The notes beneath the pieces are model-generated. The model was given only the letters and a program-made list of their open reading frames with translations, searched no databases and had not been told where the DNA came from. DNA of 64,000 bases from an uncultured Trueperaceae bacterium (GTDB lineage: Bacteria > Deinococcota > Deinococci > Deinococcales > Trueperaceae), in assembly GCA_937873495.1 (NCBI GenBank), contig CALMXZ010000010.1, forward strand, positions 124,001 to 188,000, in the 5' to 3' direction. How positions within the stretch are numbered: the first letter of the stretch is position 1; each line of letters begins with the position of its first letter. Of this stretch, positions 32,628 through 53,490 are shown piece after piece. Both the position numbers and the translations under genes were made by a program.

Positions 32628-32662
32628 GAGGCGTCGGCGTTGGAGGAAGGCGCCGACGCCTC
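32628..32662 (-). terminator. Hairpin at the end of the EAL gene
   Basis: 12-bp perfect arms (32628-32639 and 32651-32662) with an 11-nt loop overlap the EAL stop codon. This is the likely transcription end of the EAL unit, although no U tract follows. Confidence 0.55.
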
Positions 32663-33485
32663 AGCGGATCGGCCTGGTGCGCAAGTCTAGGCCAGCGGCA
32701 GAGCCGTTCCTGACCGACGAGGCAGCACAGGCGCCGGCGGAGGCCCCCGCGCCCGCCGGATCGACGCCAAGGTCCGCAACCAAGGCATCGCCGACCGTCC
32801 GCAGCTCGGCCGCGGGTCTGGCTATCCCGAAGCCCTGCACATGGCTGACGCCAAGTGCCTGCAAGTCCACACTTACGGACGGCTCTTCAACACCCTCGGC
32901 GACGACTATCGGATAGCGATCGCAGAGGGACCGTACGAACCGACGGGCGCTCTCGCGCGCCTCGCCCGTCTGGTGAAGCGCGGCGTCGATGACGCTGCGG
33001 TCGATCTTGACCCCGTCGACCTTGGCGTCGAAACGCAGCCGCTCACGAAGATCGCCGGGCGCGACGTCGTCCAGGACGACCACCCCGCAGCGCTCACGCA
33101 GCAAGACCATCTGGCGCGCGAGGGCTCCCTGGTCGGCATGGCACTCCTCGGTCAACTCGACGTGCAACCGCGCCGTGATGCTCCTGAGCATGCCCTCGAG
33201 CACGAGGATGGTGCTCGGCAGCATGACCTGTTTGGGGCTCAGGTTGACCGACAGACGCGCTTCGGCGTTGGCGGCCAACACCTGCGCACCGCGTAGGAGG
33301 GTGAACTGCGTGAACTCCTCGATGCGCGCCTGAGACAACCAGTAAGGCAAGACCTCGAGCGGACCGCGCACGGTTCCGTCCGGGTGTTGCCACCGGACCA
33401 GCGCTTCGCACCACGGGCTTGCGCCCAGCGTTACGGGGGCGACCGGTTGGTAGAGGAAACGTAGATCTTCTAGACGTTGTCGCAT
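32661..33485 (-). CDS. EAL-domain protein (c-di-GMP phosphodiesterase or sensor)
   Basis: A stand-alone EAL domain of 274 residues. EAL is intact at 27-29 (WCEALVRW). The metal/catalytic positions SVNLSPKQV, HVELTEE, VLDDV, VDGVKIDRSV, AEGVEE and QGFG are recognisable. The loop normally reading DDFGTG is DDVAPG, a change that can weaken metal binding or dimer-linked activity. About 45 C-terminal residues are Ala/Gly-rich and not part of the fold. It sits between the small exported peptide gene (108 bp upstream, same strand) and the nuclease pair. Whether it degrades or only binds c-di-GMP is open. Confidence 0.85.
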   Translation of the reverse strand: MRQRLEDLRFLYQPVAPVTLGASPWCEALVRWQHPDGTVRGPLEVLPYWLSQARIEEFTQFTLLRGAQVLAANAEARLSVNLSPKQVMLPSTILVLEGMLRSITARLHVELTEECHADQGALARQMVLLRERCGVVVLDDVAPGDLRERLRFDAKVDGVKIDRSVIDAALHQTGEARESARRFVRSLCDRYPIVVAEGVEEPSVSVDLQALGVSHVQGFGIARPAAELRTVGDALVADLGVDPAGAGASAGACAASSVRNGSAAGLDLRTRPIR

Positions 33486-33593: not shown

Positions 33594-33740
33594 CTAGCCG
33601 ACGTCGTACTCGCCGGGCTGGTTGCTCGTCTGGGCGATGACGCTGTTGGTCGGGTGGTAGGCGGCGAAGCTGCCGATGGCGATGCCGGCCAGCGTGACGG
33701 TGAGGACGAGGGCAGTGGCGATGCTCTTGAGGTTGCGCAT
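33594..33740 (-). CDS. 48-aa exported or membrane peptide
   Basis: ATG at 33740 follows AGGAGG at a 9-nt spacing. The 48 residues are a positively charged start (MRNLK), a hydrophobic stretch (SIATALVLTVTLAGIAIG) and a short polar tail with AYHPTNSVIAQTSNQPGEYD. It looks like a signal-peptide-bearing propeptide or a single-span microprotein. A plus-strand open frame over the same bases has poor features. It is transcribed away from the 65-aa/SARP-like pair. I know no family; a secreted signal is one idea. Confidence 0.6.
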   Translation of the reverse strand: MRNLKSIATALVLTVTLAGIAIGSFAAYHPTNSVIAQTSNQPGEYDVG

Positions 33741-33784
33741 GATAGGTAGCCTCCTATGGCCTTGAGGGGAAAGTTACTTCCAGG

Positions 33785-33804
33785 GGCGCTTCAAAGGCGC
33801 TTCA
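33785..33804. promoter_or_regulatory. 11-bp-period direct repeat between divergent genes
   Basis: GGCGCTTCA occurs at 33785-33793 and again at 33796-33804, an 11-bp period, with an inverted partial copy TGAAGCG at 33844-33850. SARP-type regulators recognise short direct repeats on one face of DNA at 11-bp steps, and a SARP-like regulator is encoded 470 bp away. Confidence 0.45.
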
Positions 33805-33902
33805 CCCGGCGGAGCCCCCGCGGCCGCCCGCGCGAAGCGGGTGTGAAGCGGCGGACCCTTAGCCTGGGTCCAGTCGTCGAAGGACGAGAGGGAGATGGAT
33901 CC

Positions 33903-34100
33903 ATGGAAAGACAAGAAGCCCTGCGTCTTCTGAATGCCAGCACAGCGTTCGAGTTCCTCGAAGACAAGGTCGTCCTTCGCGACGAGCGCTTGTTGGCGGC
34001 CGTCGCCGAGCTGAGGAGCCGTGAGGGGTACGCCCGGAACGCCGATCCCGCTTTCCTCCCGTACTCACCGGAACGGCGCGCATCACCCCGGCTCCTCTGA
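33903..34100 (+). CDS. 65-aa hypothetical protein
   Basis: The predicted product (MERQEALRLLNASTAFEFLE...) is largely helical with charged residues and ends in a basic tail. The ATG at 33903 has a GGGAG ribosome site at 33890-33894; frames starting further upstream run through the repeat region. It precedes the SARP-like regulator by 177 bp on the same strand. No homologous family is recognised. Confidence 0.5.
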   Translation: MERQEALRLLNASTAFEFLEDKVVLRDERLLAAVAELRSREGYARNADPAFLPYSPERRASPRLL

Positions 34101-34266
34101 CCGGATCCGGCCGCCACGAACCGGCCACCATGGGCTGACGGCGGCGCGGTGGCAAGGCGGACGCGCCATACGCGCCGGACGCGTACAGTCCGGCCTTGCC
34201 TCGGCTCGTGCCCAAGAGTTTTAGGCGAGGGTCCGCCTAGCTGACCCACGTCCGTTCGCGCGTGGC

Positions 34267-34272
34267 TATCCT
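34267..34272 (+). promoter_or_regulatory. Leaderless -10 box of the SARP-like gene
   Basis: TATCCT stands 5 nt before the GTG at 34278, matching the TANNNT leaderless pattern and explaining the lack of a spaced ribosome site. Confidence 0.5.
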
Positions 34273-34277
34273 TAGAG

Positions 34278-36767
34278 GTGTGGCTACCTAGGCTGCTGAC
34301 CGCCCTTGAGGCGGCGGACCGGCCCGTGCTCGCCACGGGCGGCGAGGAGTACGGTGTACCGTTCCTCGTCGCTGCCCTGCGAGAACGCTCCTCCGTGGCG
34401 TGGCTAGAGCTGGACCGCGGCACCCGTGGCGACGCGGTCGCGCAAGGCAACGCGCTCGCCAAGGCCGTCAACGCCACGCTCGGCACGTCGCTCCTGGCCG
34501 CCGCGCTCCCTTACTCCGCGCACCTCGCGGCCCTCAAGCATCACCGGGACGAGTTACTGCCGCTCTGGCTCGTGCTGACCACGGAGTCGGCCGCGGAGCC
34601 CGTCGTCGGCGCGCTGCTCGGGCTCGTCGAGGACGGCTACCGCGTACTGCTCGACCTGCGTGGTGAGGCCGCCGTGCCTCCGGAGCTCGCCGACCGCTGC
34701 GCCGTGCTCGGCCCCGACGAACTGCGGGTTCCGTTGGCCGAGGCGGAGCTGCTCGTTCCGCGCGCAGTTGCCCCCGCCGAGCTCGCCGGGTTGTGGCGCT
34801 CGGCCGACGGTCGCTTCACGCCGCTCATCCAGCGGGCGCACCGGCTGGCCGGCCTGCCGGCGATCTCCGTGCCCGCCCCGACGGGCAGTCTCGTGCCGAA
34901 GGAGCAGGCGCAGCTCGTCGATGCCCCCCTCGCCGTCCAGGCGCTCAGGCGCGAGGGGGAGCTCATCGCGGCCCTCGAGCTCGCCACCCTCAAGGCGCCT
35001 GAGCTGGTCGACGACCTCCTGCGGCAGTCGGGCCCGCGCTTCCAGGAGGAGGGGCTGCTGCCAAGGCTGCACCTCCTCCTCTCGGCGCTACCCGAGGCGT
35101 ACTCACGCAGCGAGCGTGTGCTCGAGTGGCGGCTGGTCGCCGCCCTGGCCGCCTCCGACCTCGCCGGGGTACTGCCGGACGTAGACGCACACTTGGCGGT
35201 GCACATCGCGCCCGATCTCAGGGCCAGGCGCGCCGGGGCCATGCCGCGAGAGGACGGCTTCGCGCTGGCCAAGCAGGCCGTGGAGGCGCGCCGCACGCCG
35301 CTGACCTTGTGGCAGTACGGCAGGTTGCATCCGGACGACGACGTCGCCCTGCAGGTCCTGCGCGAGTCCGTGCAACTGGCCGACGACGCCGGCACGCCTT
35401 TCGACCTGGTGCGCAACGGCGGCATGCTCGTGGCGCGCCTCGCGCAGCAGGGCGACTACGGCCAGGCGGCGCGTTGGGCCAGGTGGGTGCTCGACGTGTT
35501 CGACAGGGGAGACGTCCGCGACGGCGCCAGGCGGCTGCAGGTCGTCAACGACTTGGCGATGGCCAGCATCATGACGGGCGACCTGGTCGGCGTGCGCAAG
35601 CTCCTCGAGAACGCGACGGTGTTGGCGGAGGGCGGTCTGCCGCAGCTCGCCGCGCTGCTCAAGGGGACGCTCGCCGCCCTCGAGCTCGTGGAGGGTCGCC
35701 GGCTCGCCGCGCTCGCGCACGCGGAGGAGAACTACCGGACCAGCTCGCGCCGGACGCGCGCCCTGCACGGTTACGTGCTCGTGCGCGTGCTGCTCGAGCT
35801 CGAGGACTTCGAGGCCGCGCGGCGGGTCGCCGTCGACATAGGAGAGCTGGTCGACCCGACGCGGGCGCACGAGTGGGCCGTCTCCCGGCTCGTGCAGGGC
35901 ATGGTGACCGCGGTGATGGTGGCCGCCGGCGCCGCGGAGGACGCCGCCGACAGTGGTGGCGGTAGGCAGGCTGCGGCCGCCGACGACCTGCTGAGCGCGA
36001 TCCTCGAGCCGTCCCTCACCGCGGAGCAGCGCCTGAGCGCCGTCCTCCACTACCTGTTGCTCGTGCCGGGGGCGGTCGCGAACCTGCCGGCCGCCGCCGC
36101 CGAGCTGGCGGTGGCGTCCTCGGCCGCCGCCCTGCGGGTCGCCAGCGGCCCGGAGAAGCACTTCGCGTCCGTCTGGAACACCATCTCCAGGCCGCGCCCC
36201 GCGCTACACGTCACCCTGCTCGGCGAGCCGGAGGCCCGCTACCGGGGGAGCGCGCACGCGTTGCCGTTGCGCCTCGCGGAGGTCGTCTCGGCCCTGGTCC
36301 TCAACCGTGATGGCATCGACCTGGAGGCGCTCAACGCCTATCTGGTGCCGGAAGGCAAGGAGCCGTTCACCAAGAGCGGGGTCCGCGGCATGATGACGAG
36401 GCTGAGGAAGTTCCTCCCCATATCGGACGCCCCCTACGGCTTCGCGGAACCGTTCTCAGCGGACGTGCTCGCGCTGCGGGGCCACCTCGCGAAGAACGAG
36501 GTGCGCCAGGCCGTCGCCCTCTACCGTTCCGGGCTCCTCCCGCGGAGCTCGGCGCCGGGCGTCGAGGAGGAGCGCCTGGCCTTGGAGGAGGAGCTGAGAC
36601 AGGCCGTGCTCGAATCGGCCGATGCCGACGCCCTCTGTGAGCTGGCGGAGCGGCTGGGCGACGACCTGGAGTGCTGGGAGGCGGCCGAGAGGACGCTGCT
36701 GCGCGGCGACCCGCGCCTGACCGTGGCCCGGGCGCGCGTCAGGCGGTTGCGGCAGGCTTACCTCTGA
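34278..36767 (+). CDS. SARP/MalT-like regulator without a P-loop
   Basis: An 829-residue regulator. The N-terminal ~200 residues look like a STAND-type NTPase that has lost its nucleotide site: where GxxGxGK(S/T) is expected the sequence is TGGEEYGVPF. The middle (about 230-620) is helical-repeat (TPR-like). The C-terminus carries a SARP-like winged helix (about 640-715; LHVTLLGEPEARYRG, GMMTRLRKFLP) and a BTAD-like helical end. It differs from its P-loop-bearing relative at 47139-49979. Target genes are unknown; the divergent promoter region upstream with 11-bp repeats is a candidate. Confidence 0.75.
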   Translation: MWLPRLLTALEAADRPVLATGGEEYGVPFLVAALRERSSVAWLELDRGTRGDAVAQGNALAKAVNATLGTSLLAAALPYSAHLAALKHHRDELLPLWLVLTTESAAEPVVGALLGLVEDGYRVLLDLRGEAAVPPELADRCAVLGPDELRVPLAEAELLVPRAVAPAELAGLWRSADGRFTPLIQRAHRLAGLPAISVPAPTGSLVPKEQAQLVDAPLAVQALRREGELIAALELATLKAPELVDDLLRQSGPRFQEEGLLPRLHLLLSALPEAYSRSERVLEWRLVAALAASDLAGVLPDVDAHLAVHIAPDLRARRAGAMPREDGFALAKQAVEARRTPLTLWQYGRLHPDDDVALQVLRESVQLADDAGTPFDLVRNGGMLVARLAQQGDYGQAARWARWVLDVFDRGDVRDGARRLQVVNDLAMASIMTGDLVGVRKLLENATVLAEGGLPQLAALLKGTLAALELVEGRRLAALAHAEENYRTSSRRTRALHGYVLVRVLLELEDFEAARRVAVDIGELVDPTRAHEWAVSRLVQGMVTAVMVAAGAAEDAADSGGGRQAAAADDLLSAILEPSLTAEQRLSAVLHYLLLVPGAVANLPAAAAELAVASSAAALRVASGPEKHFASVWNTISRPRPALHVTLLGEPEARYRGSAHALPLRLAEVVSALVLNRDGIDLEALNAYLVPEGKEPFTKSGVRGMMTRLRKFLPISDAPYGFAEPFSADVLALRGHLAKNEVRQAVALYRSGLLPRSSAPGVEEERLALEEELRQAVLESADADALCELAERLGDDLECWEAAERTLLRGDPRLTVARARVRRLRQAYL

Positions 36768-53081: not shown

Positions 53082-53405
53082 TCAGCCGCCCGGCTGCTTG
53101 TCCTGGAGCTTCTCGAGGTAGGCGGCCAGGTTGTCCAACCTCGTCTCCATCGTCCTTCGGAAGGTGCTCAGCCACTCGTCCAGCTCCTCGAACGGCTCGC
53201 GCTTGAGACCGTAGATCCGACGGTTGGCCTCCGGCTTCGCCTCGAGGAGGCCGGAGTTGGCCAACACCTTGAGGTGCTTCGAGGTCTGGGGCTGCCGGAG
53301 CTCGAGCCGGTCGGCTATCTCCCCGACCGCCAGCGGACCCTCCCGCAGGAGCTCGACGATGCGCATGCGGTTCGGTTCGGCCAGGGCGTTGAAGGTAGTG
53401 TGCAT
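53082..53405 (-). CDS. ArsR-family transcriptional regulator
   Basis: The 107-residue winged-helix protein has NALAEPNRMRIVELLREGPL, recognition helix RQPQTSKHLKVLANSGLLEA and wing NRRIYGLK, the usual ArsR layout. No Cys metal site is visible, so it belongs to the group coupled to SRPBCC proteins rather than metal sensors. It is probably autoregulated through the inverted repeat upstream. Confidence 0.92.
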   Translation of the reverse strand: MHTTFNALAEPNRMRIVELLREGPLAVGEIADRLELRQPQTSKHLKVLANSGLLEAKPEANRRIYGLKREPFEELDEWLSTFRRTMETRLDNLAAYLEKLQDKQPGG

Positions 53406-53460
53406 GGCGGTCTCGCGCTTCGTCCTGCTCGTGCCGGTGGGTGCCGGCCCTTCCCGCCCG

Positions 53461-53490
53461 ACGATAACGCCATGAGTATATTCCTGTCAA
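53461..53490 (-). promoter_or_regulatory. Promoter of the arsR-SRPBCC pair
   Basis: On the minus strand TTGACA (53490-53485) is followed by an 18-nt spacer and TATCGT (53466-53461). Confidence 0.5.

Follow-up and report, generated by a model that had tools for sequence, protein, structure and literature searches.

The locus and its relatives

A stretch of 64,000 nucleotides from an uncultured Trueperaceae bacterium (hereafter the window; positions 124001-188000 of contig C10 of the 3.4-Mb source genome, G000) carries a gene for a 48 amino acid long, putatively exported peptide that is divergent from the gene of a large tetratricopeptide repeat (TPR) regulator; the two probably form a peptide-signalling circuit. 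The peptide gene is encoded on the minus strand (33740-33594), whereas a 65-aa open reading frame (ORF; 33903-34100) and the 829-aa regulator ORF (34278-36767) lie on the plus strand. Downstream of the peptide gene, and on the same strand, a gene for an EAL-domain phosphodiesterase of cyclic di-GMP (c-di-GMP) is found (32661-33485; PF00563, E 5.2e-30). A previous sequence-only reading had proposed this arrangement, with a signal-peptide-like gene opposite the 65-aa and 829-aa genes and followed by an EAL gene, and all of these ORFs were confirmed.

When the regulator was used as a query against 61 relatives (genomes are labelled G and loci L), matches were obtained in 41 of them. The term type A denotes a regulator clade that was set by the tree and by the gene neighbours and that comprises 17 genomes in all. 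Fifteen type-A regulators are contained in the tree and group together (n=15, support 99/97); those of G004 and G033 were added from the regulator search and stand outside the tree.

The exported peptide and its C-terminal tail

The product of the 48-aa gene is MRNLKSIATALVLTVTLAGIAIGSFAAYHPTNSVIAQTSNQPGEYDVG. In all 17 type-A genomes, a small ORF of the exported type occupies the corresponding position and diverges from the genes of the 65-aa protein and the regulator; each of these genomes has a propeptide in the size range of RRNPP systems (10-100 aa) next to the regulator gene. Conservation of this pairing had been set beforehand as a check on the sequence-only reading, and both frame and position proved to be kept in all 17 genomes. 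The stop position, the Shine-Dalgarno sequence and the neighbours are likewise maintained across the other genomes: a GGAGG-like Shine-Dalgarno sequence precedes the ORF in 15/15 loci inspected, and every closed frame ends in D-x-G followed by the stop codon (16/16 type-A peptides), the frame in G034 running off its contig. The ratio of nonsynonymous to synonymous substitution rates (dN/dS) over the whole frame is 0.125 for the closest pair and 0.29 for G001/G005.

Residues 1-30 match a signal sequence found in G035 and G109, where it belongs to a binding protein of the periplasmic type, and because of this likeness residues 1 to about 26 are considered to be a Sec signal sequence. A hidden Markov model (HMM) trained on 14 type-A peptides was searched in 111 genomes, for which the order and the phylum set are the same. 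It gave 16 strong matches, all at this locus, and no strong match away from it. The weak matches G035:C3 and G109:C383 were rejected as peptides, being the binding-protein signal sequence mentioned above. Searches of Pfam and NCBIfam at E<=1 returned no match for the peptide, and PHROGs provided one weak match of the signal region to a family of unknown function (E 0.00098). Under one fixed filter, the window contains two distinct signal-like, intergenic small ORFs with an ATG start and a Shine-Dalgarno sequence; the second is located at 53359-53475.

The 22-aa C-terminal tail of the peptide in the window is AYHPTNSVIAQTSNQPGEYDVG. In G027, the tail of the precursor is present twice (AGSSGQPGDIDVG, with 39 nt identical). 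In G034, a signal-like segment precedes a tandem array of the 11-aa unit DSGGLVVPDVG, which has at least five copies and continues off the contig end. Between units 1 and 2, 6 of the 11 codons are different, and all differences are synonymous, including AGC/TCC for serine, which argues for selection on the peptide. Judged by sequence, these tandem units are the signature of a multi-copy pheromone precursor. A convincing second copy of the G034 repeat precursor was not found, other matches having E>=0.002. The border of the first G034 unit and of both G027 copies follows an alanine, and an alanine is present at this position in most orthologs, as in VIA/QTSN in the window and TIA/DSGG in G009 (the slash marks the border). 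Because of these borders and of the D-x-G end, the mature peptide is predicted to comprise the last 10-12 residues, and the mature signal in the window would be QTSNQPGEYDVG (residues 37-48; 33597-33632, minus strand). The earlier suggestion that the C-terminal tail could act as a signal is consistent with the invariant D-x-G end, the duplication in G027 and the tandem units in G034.

The regulator

The AlphaFold2 (AF2) model of the full-length regulator, which was based on an alignment of 18 rows, has a predicted local distance difference test score (pLDDT) of 89.3 and a predicted template modelling score (pTM) of 0.76. It consists of an alpha/beta NTPase-like domain without a P-loop (residues 1-165), a helical TPR superhelix (residues 216-636), an OmpR-type winged helix (residues 643-728) and a helical, BTAD-like end (residues 729-828). 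The secondary structure of the last two parts is compatible with the SARP order of winged helix and BTAD. The loss of the P-loop, already recognized in the sequence-only reading, extends to the whole family: the Walker A motif GxxxxGK[ST] is found in the first 120 aa of 0/32 regulators, and by its sequence the N-terminal domain is dead. The same reading had described the protein as a TPR/SARP-like regulator. This description gains support from the fold model and from weak profile matches of positions 633-702 to OmpR/PhoB/ToxR chains among the PDB sequences, but not from Pfam and NCBIfam, which were silent at E<=1. The profile search of PDB sequences listed no RRNPP chain at E<=1, although a relation at the level of the fold may exist.

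In structure alignments (VIA-align), Rap with its pheromone reached a Z value of 23.2 over 317 residues, with a root-mean-square deviation of 4.3, and further values were 22.9 for MalT domain III, 21.2 for RapF, 20.9 for NprR and 19.7 for AimR. The best Foldseek match was a STAND protein with TPRs (6mfv). The TPR part contains residues that are kept in 14/14 type-A regulators, including R263, R280, W284, R285, R315, R317, Q346, R349, R379, W400, R418 and R419, and N424 is kept in 13/14. Many of the conserved residues are basic, and the peptide tail is acidic.

A predicted two-sided operator between the divergent genes

The intergenic region contains two copies of CGCTTCA, at 33787 and 33798, which bear out the repeats with an 11-bp period noted before, and an inverted pair, CGAAGCG/TGAAGCG at 33833/33844, which is an addition to the earlier note. 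Together with the -10 elements, they constitute a predicted peptide-side operator (TGAAGCG-N4-TGAAGCG-N10-TAACTT; 33771-33804, minus strand) and its conserved inverted counterpart on the regulator side (CGAAGCG-N4-TGAAGCG-N9-TAGCCT; 33833-33865, plus strand). This plan is common to 15 loci. Toward the peptide, YGRAGCG-N4-YGRAGCG-N10-TAnnnT is present with 0 mismatches in 14/15 loci; toward the 65-aa gene, the N10 pattern is present with 0-3 mismatches in 14/15 loci, the spacer in the window being N9. The 10-nt spacing is counted from the heptamer end and varies with how the repeat is delimited, and the consensus was drawn from the same 15 loci, so that the shuffle values obtained there are descriptive. 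The exception is G010, whose regulator is 36% identical and where another heptamer, CGTTGAA, is directly repeated with an 11-bp period.

According to the available text of the respective papers, SARP operators consist of two heptamers separated by 4 nt (PMC5930380), and their 11-bp repeats are located just upstream of the -10 element, with the 3' repeat 8 bp away from it (PMC10936776). In 14/15 loci, direct repeats with an 11-bp period keep a constant distance to the -10 element, and both the conserved two-sided geometry and the near-uniqueness of the site agree with the idea of a SARP-type operator. In the source genome, the full pattern with <=2 mismatches occurs at this locus only. Across six genomes of the genus, it is again restricted to the locus, apart from one 2-mismatch match in G002, in which the regulator was found only as a fragment; this match was the sole site off the locus in a regulon search with the full operator. 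A shorter 12-base pattern provided 2 further sites in the source genome, with no clear excess over a reversed control. The two-sided site at the regulator's own promoter suggests autoregulation, and the near-uniqueness of the operator points to a very narrow regulon.

The neighbouring EAL and 65-aa proteins

The EAL gene adjoins the peptide gene in 14 type-A loci; only a fragment of it is present in G020, and the contigs of G034 and G109 end too early to judge its presence. The gap between the peptide stop and the EAL start is 64-197 bp across loci. No terminator or attenuator hairpin was detected between the two genes in the window (z +2.4), and some orthologs have strong hairpins there (z -2.5 in L010 and -3.6 in L020). 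Residues E27, N81, E110, D139, D140, K160, E197 and Q217, which we take to be the metal-binding and catalytic residues, do not vary among those aligned orthologs that extend over these positions. The loop after the DD pair is DDVAPG, the usual EAL loop being DDFGTG.

The 65-aa protein (ATG start at 33903, plus strand) is encoded between the operator and the regulator in type-A loci. It was matched there by tblastn except in G010, where it was read from the sequence, and no match was obtained in Pfam and NCBIfam at E<=1. The model shows a helix-strand-strand-helix core with a variable tail (AF2 pLDDT 67), and the conserved N-terminal core comprises about 44 aa. The source genome contains 66 matches to SBP_bac_5, the oligopeptide/dipeptide binding protein, 65 of them above the curated cut-off, which would indicate a capacity for peptide import and nothing more specific.

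Paralogous regulators and unrelated exported peptides

A second, unrelated peptide of 33 aa (type B; MKNTGKR...SQR), for which an HMM trained on five sequences finds five more, has, in 9/10 loci, a divergent neighbour gene that encodes a TPR winged-helix protein of approximately 560 aa. An 830-aa TPR regulator is located next to or beyond the type-B peptide in six loci, an HD-GYP gene follows the peptide in three (L044, L049 and L051), and in L047 an oligopeptide-importer set (SBP_bac_5 and two permeases) lies 3' of it. The leaders of the type-B genes are about 300 nt long (L047 3600-3930, L048, L049, L051, L132-L136 and L044) and contain 2-5 copies of TGGGAG each, i.e. 34 in 3.2 kb compared to 0.1-0.9 per kb in the remainder of these loci; GGGA tetraloop hairpins are predicted for 16 of the 34 copies. 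CsrA was dismissed as a binder of these hairpins, PF02599 being absent from 10/10 genomes, and an Rfam scan of 8 type-B loci gave no match. The leader is possibly an undescribed structured RNA.

In G013, a Truepera metagenome-assembled genome, three paralogous TPR regulators (L036, L039 and L043) each have a distinct small exported peptide in convergent orientation, and further small exported ORFs, often convergent, are found beside paralogous regulators in G012, G010 and G017. The enrichment of such ORFs was determined with one fixed filter, which missed both Deinococcus peptides described below and several A-clade peptides. In type-A loci, it detected 10 small ORFs near the regulator (32 kb) versus 0 far from it (120 kb). 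In the other loci the enrichment was weak, with 6 near (47 kb) versus 4 far (134 kb; 6/10 near, binomial p 0.02), and three of the four far ORFs sit in loci carrying type-B peptides.

Two Deinococcus megaplasmids encode full-length homologs of the regulator (35% identity; L209 7486-9927 and L210 7438-9889), each convergent with an exported peptide that shares AESGGAGxPGGGxHLD; one of the two peptides is unannotated. Genes for a radical SAM protein and a second oxidoreductase accompany them, small peptides are encoded nearby, and KNUC1210 additionally has lantibiotic dehydratase genes. Such a region may represent a locus for ribosomally synthesized and post-translationally modified peptides (RiPPs) under such a regulator. 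For the Thermus/Thermaceae homologs L155-L162, no convincing small exported ORF was found by the regulator, save one 46-aa ORF in L161.

A probable peptide-pheromone circuit and its alternatives

The reading that we favour, and consider probable, is an auto-activating peptide-pheromone circuit that resembles RRNPP systems in its operation, probably without being homologous to them, and that likely has c-di-GMP hydrolysis as its output. The 48-aa product would be exported by Sec as a precursor, from which the C-terminal 10-12 residues (QTSNQPGEYDVG in the window) would be released as a signal peptide. The released peptide would re-enter through oligopeptide importers and be bound by the TPR superhelix of the regulator, which is predicted to be cytosolic. 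In this liganded state, the regulator would bind the paired heptamers, 4 nt apart, upstream of both divergent -10 elements, recruit RNA polymerase in the manner of SARPs and raise both its own operon and the peptide-EAL unit, thereby creating a positive feedback, and the EAL enzyme would lower c-di-GMP. The exported precursor, its multi-copy tails, the pairing with the regulator, the near-unique two-sided operator and the TPR fold emerge from the comparison of genomes and models. Processing, re-import, ligand binding, the sign of regulation, co-transcription of the EAL gene and use between cells are what we infer from them.

Several observations weigh against this circuit. Of the 16 strong HMM matches, 14 come from the training set itself and the other 2 are nearly identical to its members, and their informative part is therefore that no strong match occurs elsewhere. 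In G017, which is placed immediately outside the clade, neither the peptide nor the 65-aa gene is present at the divergent position, and G020 has ACG at the start position in addition to its fragmentary EAL gene. The whole-frame dN/dS is 0.65-1.0 in the other four within-genus pairs. Non-pheromone TPR proteins align almost as well as Rap (APPBP2, Z 21.9; LGN, Z 20.6), and the fold alone is thus not decisive.

As an alternative, the peptide could be a secreted effector with an antimicrobial, metal-binding or surface function, which the regulator controls but does not sense, and the D-x-D-x-G-like tail and the tandem units would then serve an extracellular role. Tandem short units and acidic, glycine-rich tails are also known from structural and calcium-binding secreted proteins, and on the two Deinococcus plasmids a homologous regulator has a RiPP-like setting, with radical SAM, second oxidoreductase and small-peptide neighbours. 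The operator, however, accompanies each of the two divergent promoters, that of the regulator among them, and the pairing of paralogous TPR regulators with unrelated exported peptides is a receptor-ligand pattern; we consider an unsensed effector unlikely. The single hydrophobic segment with a short tail after it would suit a small membrane-anchored protein that informs either the regulator or the EAL enzyme of the state of the envelope. This is an option of low probability, because the N-terminus resembles a cleaved signal sequence, the tails are duplicated or tandem in two genomes and the TPR regulator is modelled as soluble. With a probability that we rate slightly lower again, the parts would be those of the pheromone circuit, but the peptide would re-enter its own cell and function as an export-import timer instead of an intercellular signal. 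A chance frame with an artefactual pairing, for which the dN/dS values close to 1 in some pairs could be quoted, can practically be dismissed because the frame, stop, Shine-Dalgarno sequence and neighbours are kept and the repeat units differ synonymously.

Comparison with known systems

Peptide quorum sensing via TPR receptors has been described for Bacillota. NprX of Bacillus is SKPDIVG and PhrA of pneumococcus (TprA-PhrA) contains LDVG, and the tails found here contain PDVG and DVG; this likeness is likely a coincidence or the result of convergence. As in the RRNPP(A) systems of Bacillota (Rap-Phr, NprR-NprX, PlcR-PapR, AimR-AimP), a small gene for a Sec-type precursor adjoins a gene for a cytosolic TPR protein, the active peptide is predicted at the C-terminus of the precursor, and Rap, NprR and AimR are among the proteins with which the modelled TPR superhelix aligns best, next to MalT, APPBP2 and LGN. 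Some RRNPP precursors hold several peptide copies, according to the available text of PMC11343458. In contrast to these systems, the regulator has 829 aa, a C-terminal OmpR/SARP-like DNA-binding domain and a dead NTPase-like domain in front, the host phylum is Deinococcota, and no RRNPP chain was found by sequence profile. Because receptor size and domain order differ, we set the system apart from RRNPP and only state that it would work like one. Validated RRNPP receptors have 285-473 aa, and the RRNPP detector was built for Firmicutes, receptors of 250-500 aa and propeptides of 10-100 aa, as far as the available text of PMC10075063 goes; with its 829-aa receptor, the present system therefore falls outside this detector.

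With the large SARPs, such as AfsR and PimR, the system shares a predicted operator in which paired heptamers with a 4-nt spacer precede the -10 element, a modelled OmpR-type winged helix beside a helical domain, and NTPase-like and TPR parts. It differs from them by the reversed order, with the SARP end last, the loss of the P-loop, the lack of a Pfam match and the paired exported peptide. The order of NTPase-like domain, TPRs and DNA-binding end corresponds to MalT and STAND proteins, in line with the Z value of MalT domain III (22.9), but the P-loop is lost, the DNA-binding end is of the OmpR-type instead of the LuxR-type, and the predicted ligand is a peptide.

Concluding remarks

In the open literature, no paper on such a system in Deinococcota was found (subscription journals were outside the scope), and neither quorum sensing by peptides in Trueperaceae nor peptide receptors of the SARP-TPR kind were the subject of any paper found (subscription journals were mostly outside the scope). 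We give even chances to the wider proposal that Deinococcota carry a family of pheromone circuits, in which P-loop-less, STAND-like TPR activators with a SARP-type end read their own exported peptide. Diversification of its paralogs would have given rise to several unrelated peptide codes, two of them beside different c-di-GMP phosphodiesterases (EAL and HD-GYP), and the family would be an independent, RRNPP-like solution outside the Bacillota that is tied to c-di-GMP.

If true, this would constitute a second, independently built family of peptide-TPR signalling and a direct link from a peptide to c-di-GMP, with a testable candidate peptide for each genome and, through the homologs on Deinococcus plasmids, culturable hosts. 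It would also suggest where the ligands of other TPR-bearing STAND/SARP regulators may be encoded, namely in small unannotated ORFs alongside their genes.

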